A stretch of DNA of 64,000 bases, taken from assembly GCF_016859125.1 (NCBI RefSeq), contig NZ_CP069338.1:2232001-2296000 (forward strand), in the 5' to 3' direction. The notes beneath the pieces were generated by a model. The model was given only the letters and a program-made list of their open reading frames with translations, was not told the DNA's origin and ran no database searches. Position 1 is the stretch's first letter. Every line of letters starts with the position of its first letter. The DNA comes from Archangium violaceum. Lineage in GTDB: Bacteria; Myxococcota; Myxococcia; Myxococcales; Myxococcaceae. The translations under genes were made by a program, and so were the position numbers. Shown in pieces: positions 35,317 to 38,059 of the stretch.

Positions 35317-35566
35317 GTCGCTCTCCTCGCGCGGTGTGTCGTTTGTCGAAAGGTGGGCACGCCCCGGGATGAGGGGGATGGCCGATCACACGGGCGACGC
35401 GGGGGGGCGGCTCCGGGCCGGCCGCCTGGGGAACGAGCGGGCGGCCGGGGCGGATCAGCAGGGCATGTCAGACCCCTCCAATATGAGTAGAGTCGTGAGC
35501 CACTCGACCACCAACGGCGCGTTGCGAGTCCTGGAACAAGGGAACCTTCTCGGCGGGGCGGACCTG

Positions 35567-35995
35567 ATGCCTCTTCTCGGCAAGAGCGGACAAAAGAAGC
35601 GCTCCCGCAAGAAGGTGGAGCAGAAGCCGGCGTTCGCCACGGCGCTGGCGCTGGTGGTGCAGCGCGGGCGTCAGGTCGCCAAGGAGATCGGCAAGACGGC
35701 GCTGTCGCGCTGCCCTCGCTGTGGACACGTGGGGCCGACACAGCAGGACTTCGGCACCCGCATCATCCGGGGCGAGCGCCGGCCGCAGTCGTGGTGCCGC
35801 AACTGCCGCAAGGTGAACCTGCCGCCGCTCAAGGCCCTGCCGAGCGCCTCGGGCCGGGAAGTGAAGGCGACCCGGGTGGAGACGGCCAACGAGAAGCCCG
35901 TGAAGACCCGGCGCCAGGAGGCCCTCAAGTTCTCCGAGGAGGGCTGGCTGTTCCCTCCGGAAGTGCTGTCGGGCGGCAAGCGCCGCGACTCCTGA
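35567..35995 (+). CDS. basic zinc-ribbon protein
   Basis: A 142-residue protein with a basic N-terminus (MPLLGKSGQKKRSRKKVEQK), a helix, then a zinc ribbon: CPRCGHVGPTQQDFG and QSWCRNCRKVNLPPL give two CxxC pairs. The C-terminal part is charged and may be disordered. The domain is of the general DNA- or RNA-binding ribbon type; no specific family is claimed. The start is uncertain: in-frame ATGs at 35465 and 35483 would add 34 or 28 residues of poor coding appearance, so 35567 is preferred. Confidence 0.6.
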   Translation: MPLLGKSGQKKRSRKKVEQKPAFATALALVVQRGRQVAKEIGKTALSRCPRCGHVGPTQQDFGTRIIRGERRPQSWCRNCRKVNLPPLKALPSASGREVKATRVETANEKPVKTRRQEALKFSEEGWLFPPEVLSGGKRRDS

Positions 35996-36105
35996 GCCAC
36001 GCCCACCGGGCAACCGCTCGGAGCCTCCGTCCGCTCCTCGTGGGATGACGTCACCGCCCCTCGCGCTCATTCCTCCTCTGAAGTCTGTCCAAGGAGGAAC
36101 GACAC

Positions 36106-36372
36106 ATGGCGGTTCGGACGGATACCGTGGGTATCAAGAACCTGCGTCAGGCGAGCGCGCACTCCGCTCAGCCCAGCCAGCACACCAGCAAGGGAAAGCC
36201 CCTCCCCTTCCGGGATGAGATTCCGCTGCTCCGGCGCGAACGGTTGCTGGCCCGGGCCCGGCTGGGGCCCGCGGCGGAGCCCCACCTGCCGAAGATTCCC
36301 CGGACGGAGGCCCCGGTGCGCGGGCGCAAGAAGCCGCCCAGCCAGATGCACATCAAGCGCAACGGTGGATGA
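36106..36372 (+). CDS. small basic protein, MAVRT/GRKK family member A
   Basis: An 88-residue, strongly basic protein without a recognised domain. It starts MAVRTDTVGIKNLRQ, has LLRRERLLARARLGPAAEPH in the middle, and ends PVRGRKKPPSQMHIKRNGG. The start and middle align with the protein at 37184-37462, and the end aligns with that at 37556-38059. AAGGAGGAACGACAC before ATG 36106 is one of the strongest ribosome sites in the window, which suggests high expression. Nucleic-acid binding is a reasonable guess from charge only. Confidence 0.72.
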   Translation: MAVRTDTVGIKNLRQASAHSAQPSQHTSKGKPLPFRDEIPLLRRERLLARARLGPAAEPHLPKIPRTEAPVRGRKKPPSQMHIKRNGG

Positions 36373-36425
36373 ACGCGGTCAACAAATCGGGGACACGCGC
36401 GGTTCACGGTCTATGCTGGGGGTGA

Positions 36426-37094
36426 ATGAGCGACGCGCTGTTCTCCTCGGAGTTCGAACCGGCTGACACACGCTACCTGTGGCGGCTGTGGTTCGCGGAC
36501 ATTCTGGACCTGGCCACCTCGGCGCTGCTGGGCTGGGGTGCCCTGCGCGCGGTGGACGTGGATCGCACGCCGCGCGCGCTCGTGGTGGCCGGGGTGGTGA
36601 CGTGGCTCCTCATGTCCGTGGCGGGCGGGCTGAGCGGCTGGACGCTGTGGCGGGGACTGGTGGGCCTGCGGCTGGTGACGGACGGGGGCGCACCGGGCCC
36701 CGTGCGAGGCTTCATCCGGGCCTTCCTCGTCCCGGTGGATCTGCTCATCTCGCCCATGCTGCAACGGCGGTACTGCGACCGCTCGCTCAAGGTGCAGCCG
36801 GAGGCGGTGCCGCTCCTGACGAAGAAATGGCAGCGCGCGCTGGGCTGGCAGGGCTTCTGGCTGCTGATGGTGTTCGCGTCGGCGTGGTTCGTGGTGATGC
36901 CCACCCGGCGCGAGGCCCTCTCGTACCTGAAGAAGCTGGATGGGTGGCGCTGCTGTCACGCGAGGACGCCGCCCTCGCCCTTCAAGTGCACGACCTCGGT
37001 GTCGCGCGCGGTGAGAGAGGCGGAAGACGGTGATGCCCGGGCCCGGGCCATCGTGGCGGACTGTCCGAGGGCCGCGGCCAGGATGGGGCGCTGA
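36426..37094 (+). CDS. RDD-like membrane protein
   Basis: A 222-residue protein with three to four membrane helices. RYLWRLWFADILDLATSALLG opens with the Arg and Asp residues that name the RDD family, and LWRGLVGLRLVTDGGAPGPV followed by RAFLVPVDLLI is the family's second signature. Another helix lies at GFWLLMVFASAWFVVM. The C-terminal 60 residues contain two vicinal Cys pairs or singles (GWRCCHARTPPSPFKC). RDD proteins are small transporters or ion-handling proteins; the role here is unknown. The gene interrupts the run of small basic-protein genes on the same strand. Confidence 0.74.
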   Translation: MSDALFSSEFEPADTRYLWRLWFADILDLATSALLGWGALRAVDVDRTPRALVVAGVVTWLLMSVAGGLSGWTLWRGLVGLRLVTDGGAPGPVRGFIRAFLVPVDLLISPMLQRRYCDRSLKVQPEAVPLLTKKWQRALGWQGFWLLMVFASAWFVVMPTRREALSYLKKLDGWRCCHARTPPSPFKCTTSVSRAVREAEDGDARARAIVADCPRAAARMGR

Positions 37095-37183
37095 GCCTGC
37101 GAGCGCCCGGCCAGGGAATGGTTGGGCGGGGGATGGAAAAACGGCCCGAGCGTCCTTACCTCCCACTCAGGAGGCCATCATCC

Positions 37184-37462
37184 ATGGCAGTCAGGACTCG
37201 GGAAGCAGGTATCAAGAACAAGCGGCGGATGGCGAATGTCGACGAGGCGCAGACGAACCGTCAGGCCCCGGGACTCAGCAATGGGCGCAAGACCGTGCCC
37301 CGTGATCAGGCCGCGGCGCTGCGTCGCCAGAAGCTGATGCGCAAGGCCACGCCCGGCCCGGCCATGACGGAGCCGGTGGGGCACGGGCCCGCCACCACCG
37401 AGGTGCGGCCCGGCAAGAAGACCCTCTCGCGACGGAAGGCCAAGCGCGGCAATACCGTCTGA
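37184..37462 (+). CDS. small basic protein, MAVRT/GRKK family member B
   Basis: A 92-residue basic protein. It begins MAVRTREAGIKNKRRMANVD, aligning with MAVRTDTVGIKNLRQ of the 36106 protein, and continues with GRKTVPRDQAAALRRQKLM and ATPGPAMTEP. The GRKTVPRDQAAALRR element is repeated twice, in variant form, in the 37556 protein. It ends KKTLSRRKAKRGNTV. CAGGAGGCC precedes ATG 37184; the in-frame ATG at 37118 lacks homology upstream of MAVRT. Function unknown. Confidence 0.7.
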   Translation: MAVRTREAGIKNKRRMANVDEAQTNRQAPGLSNGRKTVPRDQAAALRRQKLMRKATPGPAMTEPVGHGPATTEVRPGKKTLSRRKAKRGNTV

Positions 37463-37555
37463 CCCTCCCGCCCCATCCGACAATTCGAACCCGACAGATG
37501 GACCGGCCCCTGGTCAATCCGGCCGGCCATCCCTACCTCACATGGGGGAGGACCC

Positions 37556-38059
37556 ATGCCAGAGAAGACCAAGCAGCTGCGCGCCAAGCGGGCCAAGGCC
37601 AAGGGCACGACGATGACAGTGATGGCCTCGGATACCGGTGACGTCCCCGCAGGCAAGAGCGCCCACGCCCTCAAGAAGAGCCGCGGCATCGCCGGCCGCA
37701 CCCGCACCACCGAGCGCTCCGTCAGCCGGCGCCGCCCACCCGGCGAAGGCAAGACGGCCCAGAGCGCCAAGCTGCCCCTGCCCGAGACCGGCAGCAGCAC
37801 CTCACGCCGCAAGACGATTCCGGACGAGGCCGCCGCCACCTACCGCCAGGGGCACCGCCGCAAGACGGTGGCCACCGAGAACGCCGCCGCCTACCGCCGC
37901 GAGGAGCGGCCCAAGGTTCCGCGCAACGAGGCGAAGCAGCGCCAGGAGACGCGCAGCAAGCGCGGCTCACCCGTGCAGGGCCGCAAGAAGGCCCCGAGCG
38001 AGATGGAAATCACCCACCGCGGCGGGCCGCGCAAGCGCCTCCGCATCCACGGCGGCTGA
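37556..38059 (+). CDS. basic repeat-bearing protein, MAVRT/GRKK family member C
   Basis: A 167-residue very basic protein. It contains two tandem units, RRKTIPDEAAATYRQGH and RRKTVATENAAAYRREE, that match GRKTVPRDQAAALRR in the 37184 protein. Near its end, SPVQGRKKAPSEMEITHRGG matches PVRGRKKPPSQMHIKRNGG of the 36106 protein. Hydrophobic residues are scarce, so it is probably disordered or folds on binding a polyanion. GGGGGAGGACCC precedes ATG 37556. The last 50 bases overlap, in antisense, the 3' end of the protease gene. Confidence 0.68.
   Translation: MPEKTKQLRAKRAKAKGTTMTVMASDTGDVPAGKSAHALKKSRGIAGRTRTTERSVSRRRPPGEGKTAQSAKLPLPETGSSTSRRKTIPDEAAATYRQGHRRKTVATENAAAYRREERPKVPRNEAKQRQETRSKRGSPVQGRKKAPSEMEITHRGGPRKRLRIHGG

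Follow-up and report, generated by a model that had tools for sequence, protein, structure and literature searches.

What are the three small basic proteins, P1, P2 and P3, that are encoded on one strand of a 64,000-nucleotide stretch of Archangium violaceum DNA (the window), and does their resemblance reflect common descent or only a shared composition? A sequence-only reading of the window had proposed that they form a family built from three shared motifs. The coordinates, lengths (88, 92 and 167 aa) and common plus strand it had given for the genes proved correct (Table 1), where the P2 start is an inner ATG of the listed open reading frame. It had also called the proteins very basic, which agrees with isoelectric points of 11.87, 12.0 and 11.68 for P1, P2 and P3, respectively, and had noted strong ribosome sites, which lie 5' of all three genes. 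An RDD-like membrane protein gene, absent from that reading, sits between P1 and P2, so that the three genes are not contiguous.

Table 1. Position of the P1, P2 and P3 genes, their motifs and two neighboring genes in the window.
Feature	Position	Strand	Remark
Zinc-ribbon protein gene (CPRCGHxGPTxxDFG...C..C)	35465..35995	+	syntenic, 5' of P1
P1 ribosome-binding site AAGGAGG	36091..36097	+	8 bases 5' of ATG
P1, 88-aa basic A-family copy	36106..36372	+	head and tail, without core
P1 A head MAVRTDTVGIKNLR	36106..36147	+	
P1 stretch LLRRERLLARARLGPAAEP	36226..36282	+	AlphaFold2 helix at residues 39-50
P1 tail motif GRKKPPSQM	36322..36348	+	
RDD-like membrane protein, 222 aa	36426..37094	+	Pfam RDD E=0.0031, 18.2 bits vs cut-off 24.1
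P2 ribosome-binding site AGGAGG	37169..37174	+	9 bases 5' of ATG
P2, 92-aa basic A-family copy	37184..37462	+	head and core, without tail
P2 core GRKTVPRDQAAALRR	37283..37327	+	
GGAGG 5' of P3	37547..37551	+	spacer of 4 bases
P3, 167-aa basic protein	37556..38059	+	B head, doubled core and A-type tail
P3 B head (MPEK...)	37556..37789	+	module present in other families of the order too
P3 core unit 1 RRKTIPDEAAATYRQ	37805..37849	+	
P3 core unit 2 RRKTVATENAAAYRR	37856..37900	+	
P3 tail motif GRKKAPSEM	37979..38005	+	

The shared motifs were largely recovered as described. The opening MAVRTxxxGIKNxR is present in P1 (MAVRTDTVGIKNLR) and P2 (MAVRTREAGIKNKR). A segment RKT(V/I)P followed by AAA occurs once in P2 (RKTVPRDQAAA) and in tandem in P3 (RKTIPDEAAA and RKTVATENAAA), but in the second P3 copy an alanine replaces the proline. 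PVxGRKKxPSxM is found in P1 (PVRGRKKPPSQM) and P3 (PVQGRKKAPSEM); it was said to end both proteins, but lies near their ends, with 7 and 17 residues following. The element LLRR...ARxGPAxxEP does link P1 (LLRRERLLARARLGPAAEP) and P2 (ALRRQKLMRKATPGPAMTEP), although more loosely than had been stated.

To separate homology from composition, pairwise BLOSUM62 local alignments were compared with alignments of 2000 shuffled sequences. P1 and P2 aligned with a score of 102 (shuffle maximum 63) and P1 and P3 with a score of 86 (shuffle maximum 62). Neither score was reached in any of the 2000 shuffles, and both links are therefore regarded as homology. The alignment of P2 with P3 alone was not significant (score 57, equalled by 81 of 2000 shuffles); this weak similarity lies in the short core, and the direct link between these two proteins leans on the family context. 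The single-copy protein of family A, to which P1 and P2 belong, from genome G070 scored 195 against P1, 191 against P2 and 181 against the C-terminal half of P3 (0/2000 shuffles each). Similarity between families A and B, the latter named for the head of P3, is weak and rests on the short core, 15 of 2000 shuffles being as good, and no similarity to A was detected for the P3 head in the shuffle-tested alignment. The two core units of P3, which were chosen by eye, aligned with a score of 45 that none of 5000 shuffles of one unit reached. The back-translated tail matched the window exactly twice and was absent from 100 shuffled versions.

Comparison of the window genes with their orthologues (8 for P1, 8 for P2 and 6 for P3, G032 being omitted) yielded pN/pS values of 0.18-0.52 in 22/22 cases. 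Of the 71 A genes, 57 have a ribosome-site match of 6-7 bases in front of them, versus 10 of 661 plus-strand ATGs of the window, which served as an unmatched control; sites of B genes are mostly 5-base matches (29/35), and two B genes have none. High-GC DNA gives rise to many spurious basic reading frames, and P2-P3 alone misses significance, which would fit a compositional coincidence or over-called reading frames. The shuffle tests, the pN/pS values below 1 and the occurrence, in dozens of genomes, of full-length orthologues preceded by ribosome sites speak against it. The sequence-only reading had itself named a lack of homologues outside this genome, or homologues devoid of the motifs, as signs of a merely compositional similarity; on the contrary, matches were obtained in 63 of the 96 Myxococcaceae genomes (G047 through a B tail only), and the motifs are kept in the homologues. 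The compositional reading is thus refuted by the shuffle scores and by the homologues, and its remaining probability is negligible. These data demonstrate that the three reading frames are genuine protein-coding genes under selection and belong to two linked small-protein families.

The distribution of family A was determined with P1 and with a profile of 14 sequences (A1), each of which matched 63/96 genomes of the family; the profile matched 0/51 other genomes of the class. Fourteen of the matching loci were assigned to Pyxidicoccus, Myxococcus, Hyalangium, Citreicoccus, Archangium and other Myxococcaceae. An A gene is present in 62 genomes, as G047 is matched only through its B protein, in the tail, and through a partial hit on contig C822; inspection of the latter for head and tail letters revealed none, and G047 was therefore counted as B only. 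With E limited to 0.001, the genome that contains the window yielded no further member of A or B. Weaker matches there (E of at least 0.002), several of them with stop codons, were rejected as paralogues. In the searches made here both families are confined to the myxobacterial order.

Most Myxococcaceae with family A carry it as a single-copy protein of approximately 98 aa with a MAVRT/MSVRT head, the core GRKTLPRDEAAALRR, LGPAAE, the tail GRKKAPSxM and GGPxxRxxLHGG; in general form, the core reads RKTLPxxxAAxxRR and the tail GRKKxPSxM...GG. Core and tail were scored by hand-made patterns in a set of 71 A proteins, which covers 61 of the 62 genomes; G074 and G047 were left out of the set and of the motif counts. 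The 51 single-copy proteins have the core in 44, the tail in 50 and the C-terminal GG in all 51 cases, the misses being mostly motif variants. G074, which was read afterwards, encodes a full A protein (with both tail and GG, and RKTLPHDDADA as a variant core) together with a tail-less B protein. A different picture was obtained in Archangium (g1, the genus of the window) and a related genus (g6), in which A is duplicated: the ten P1-type proteins have the core in 0/10, the tail in 10/10 and the GG in 10/10 cases, and the ten P2-type proteins the core in 10/10, the tail in 0/10 and the GG in 0/10. In a tree of the 71 A proteins the P1 and P2 sequences form separate clades (support 100/99 each) on long stems of 0.50 and 0.72 changes per column, respectively; the alignment is short and the deeper nodes have no clear order. 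As all P1 proteins group together, all P2 proteins group together and both stems are long, the duplication is most likely older than the split of the two genera. Judged from these sequences, P1 and P2 are duplicates of one ancestral A gene that underwent complementary motif loss, and the motif exchange among neighbors that had been proposed does not apply to them. A P1 orthologue of 68 aa in another Archangium violaceum locus (L124, 8656-9186) has kept the tail and is shorter by approximately 20 head and linker residues.

Family B was searched with a profile of MPEK proteins (A2), which at E up to 0.01 had matches in 37 of the 147 genomes searched within the class, 32 within the family and five outside it (G097, G100, G106 and G107 of family f2, and G139 of family f8; E 5e-11 to 1e-13), where mainly the head was matched. 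When 195 genomes of the phylum were searched with alignment A4, which already includes some sequences from outside the family, only G088 was added (E=2e-4), a doubtful match in a long frame. B is thus without a match in 64/96 and A in 33/96 family genomes, and neither is therefore indispensable to the family, with the proviso that some absences may be assembly gaps. A second, weak B match in G053 (E=0.0025, L174) was excluded from the counts; this genome also has a full B gene, and the stray sequence at G053:C93:165500-167000 (GDTTPLKAGKAYKGRGARKTSVRT) resembles a headless B C-terminus.

Within the core, nine positions (S83, R84, R85, T87, P89, A92, A93, Y96 and R97) are invariant in all 14 aligned Myxococcaceae B proteins. 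An A-type tail with GG is present in 10 of 35 B proteins (six g1 genomes, G031 and G032 of g6, G001 and G047) and absent from 25; G074 and G097 were left out of this set. A second core unit occurs in P3 of Archangium and of G031 and G032, and no B match was obtained in the g6 genomes G033 and G034. The last 26 residues of P3 (GRKKAPSEMEITHRGGPRKRLRIHGG) differ at two positions from the single-copy A protein of G070. From these sequences, P3 looks like a head/tail recombination, the alternative being that the tail was lost elsewhere; it is the only one of the three proteins to which the idea of motif exchange could apply.

To follow the tail independently of the profiles, its back-translated pattern was searched without mismatch in 145 genomes of the class. 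This gave 56 occurrences in 48 genomes (control 0), all of which fall inside A or B genes according to a script check and all of which lie within the family. Being strict, the pattern misses 16 genomes that the A profile does match; these include Myxococcus and g5 genomes, in which the tails read PSAM or PSQI. With two mismatches it was found three times elsewhere in the window's own genome, versus once in the control. The residue preceding the glycine in xGRKKxPSxM is R, Q, N, K or V. C-terminal Gly-Gly was observed in P1, P3, 51/51 single-copy A and 10/10 tail-bearing B proteins, and in 0/10 P2 and 0/25 tail-less B proteins; in P1 translation stops directly behind the GG that comes first in the longer tail. 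A C-terminal Gly-Gly (or GGE/GGQ) is also a mark of ubiquitin- and Pup-like modifiers, and Pfam searches of eight further proteins of the window revealed no activating or ligating enzyme for such a modifier.

The genomic neighborhood was analyzed for possible partners. For 58 A/P1 genes the upstream DNA extends over at least 700 bases (three further genes fall outside this count), and 50 of them are preceded, within 2.5 kb and in the same orientation, by a zinc-ribbon protein gene, whose product has no Pfam match above cut-off. For the other eight, this gene is co-oriented on the same contig at a distance of 2.5-5.5 kb upstream in six (G024, G062, G065, G066, G076 and G077), for four of which the upstream count covered just 1.5 kb, and on another contig in two (G044 and G051). 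The ribbon is present in 67/96 family genomes, an A match in 63/96 and both in 61; G001, G045, G080, G081, G082 and G095 have the ribbon without an A match. In 45 measured pairs the ribbon and A genes are separated by 100-248 bases. Synteny extends to further genes of the region, such as those for the 5'-nucleotidase and the trypsin-like protein, so that proximity of the ribbon gene is unspecific. It was not accepted as a specific partner, and a functional link with A is possible. Among 12 loci compared, which did not include g6, the RDD-like gene has matches only at two Archangium loci (L123 and L124).

Nearly all proteins of both families are very basic. All 71 A proteins have a pI of 11.36-12.0 and a net charge of +9 to +22, and 34 of 35 B proteins have a pI above 10, so that the K/R-rich, strongly basic character of Histone H1-like proteins is found in 71/71 A and 34/35 B proteins, with one acidic B. 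Group means range from 21 to 26% for K+R and from +11.5 (P1) to +25 (tail-bearing B) for net charge. The B-head protein of G139 (L141, 3245-3601) is unlike the other relatives in having a slightly acidic pI of 6.18 (net charge -3), and the G106 protein is only mildly basic (pI 10.25, net +7); the B head itself therefore need not belong to a polycation. AlphaFold2 models of P1 (15 sequences; mean pLDDT 63, pTM 0.22) contain one helix at residues 39-50, and those of P3 (7 sequences; mean pLDDT 56, pTM 0.15) short helices only. The models would fit disordered proteins, but the low confidence may stem from shallow alignments instead.

Database searches agreed with the earlier proposal of a modular family without a named domain: homologues occur in many genomes, and for P1, P2 and P3 no Pfam, NCBIfam or PHROGs family was matched at E up to 1. 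Six relatives gave one chance-level Pfam match (DUF4192, E=0.14, below cut-off). Against the PDB, the sole match of the A profile was mitochondrial bS21m at chance level (E=0.55), and the B profile had none at E up to 1. No A relative was found among the candidate viral contigs. An AT-hook or HMGA-like assignment of the CarD type was rejected, with RGRP in 0/106 proteins (71 A and 35 B); GRP alone occurs in 4/71 A and 7/35 B proteins, outside the tail motif (GRKKxPS). Titles and abstract openings, among the matches listed, of literature on myxobacterial basic, nucleoid, spore and lineage-specific proteins contained no account of the A/B family.

Taken together, charge and predicted disorder tentatively suggest, as the most likely reading, that A and B are disordered polycations that bind nucleic acid. 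The proteins would be cytoplasmic and intrinsically disordered and would bind an anionic polymer, for which DNA or RNA is the most likely candidate. The flanking basic stretches would supply the electrostatic work, and specific contacts with a partner would be made by two motifs, the short helical core and the conserved tail. Duplication could then have let these contacts move onto separate proteins, the tail to P1 and the core to P2. Because one B relative (G139) is acidic, the nucleic-acid reading is held slightly less strongly.

A different weight on the same features leads to a short-linear-motif adaptor, in which core and tail dock folded partners, possibly the zinc-ribbon protein, and charge merely keeps the linkers soluble. 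Its mode of action would resemble that of CarD-CarG in Myxococcus xanthus, a pair formed by a partly basic and disordered protein and a zinc-binding one. In favor of such an adaptor, the conserved columns are those of head, core and tail while the linkers vary, and the ribbon gene is both close to A/P1 genes (50/58) and found together with A in 61 genomes; the synteny of other genes such as the 5'-nucleotidase and trypsin-like genes, the six genomes with a ribbon and no A match and the 100-248 bases between the two genes weaken this case, and we regard the adaptor as unlikely. Alternatively, the proteins could be associated with the ribosome or rRNA, like ribosomal tail proteins or hibernation and assembly factors. 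Their size, a pI near 12, the lack of a predicted fold, the strong ribosome sites and the identity of the sole PDB match of A, bS21m, point in this direction, but that match is at chance level, no significant match to a ribosomal family was obtained in Pfam, NCBIfam or the PDB, and one third of the family's genomes have no match, which makes a ribosomal role improbable.

Charge alone cannot tell binding of DNA, RNA, polyphosphate or membranes apart. A role in binding another polyanion (polyphosphate, surface polysaccharide or phospholipid head groups), with the RDD-like protein as partner, also has to be weighed. The charge itself and the membrane-protein gene between P1 and P2 in the window are in line with it; the RDD-like gene, however, has matches only in L123 and L124 of the 12 loci, while A is wider, and this reading seems improbable as well. 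Returning to nucleic acid as the target, a more specific version can be envisaged, namely a lineage-specific, protamine- or H1-like system of Myxococcaceae in which nucleic acid is packed by a disordered polycation that has two independent docking motifs. Gene duplication would have been followed by the distribution of these motifs over P1 and P2, with the tail also placed on an unrelated head (P3), which would amount to a natural experiment in how a disordered protein subfunctionalises. This version is speculative and rather unlikely.

If nucleic acid is bound, myxobacteria would possess a disordered packaging or RNA-binding family that has no name in the annotation libraries searched. In addition, the complementary motif loss in 20/20 P1 and P2 proteins would provide a testable case of linear-motif subfunctionalisation in a probably disordered bacterial protein, for which the single-copy A form surviving in related genera is available for comparison.

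Several known systems resemble these families in part. Ribosomal proteins of the bS21 type are similar to P1-P3 in size and pI; A differs in having no significant sequence match to them (best E=0.55) and in its patchy presence. H1-like bacterial proteins (Hc1/Hc2, AlgP and the H1-like tails of HU) use degenerate K/A/P repeats. They are small or extended disordered polycations, as P1-P3 are predicted to be, for which electrostatic binding of nucleic acid is expected, whereas P1-P3 carry short conserved motifs and are matched by no Pfam or NCBIfam model. A parallel in arrangement is CarD of Myxococcus xanthus, whose C-terminal HMGA-like domain is a basic disordered segment confined to myxobacteria; CarG, a zinc-binding protein encoded next to CarD, forms with it a pair that acts as one unit (PMC8156234). 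CarD-CarG and the A/P1 locus have in common a basic protein segment, whose disorder is only predicted in the case of A, and a neighboring gene for a zinc-binding or zinc-ribbon protein. CarD, unlike A and B, combines a folded domain that binds RNA polymerase with an acidic stretch and four AT-hooks of the RGRP type; A and B, with RGRP in none of the 106 proteins, are instead distinguished by the conserved tail xGRKKxPSxM.
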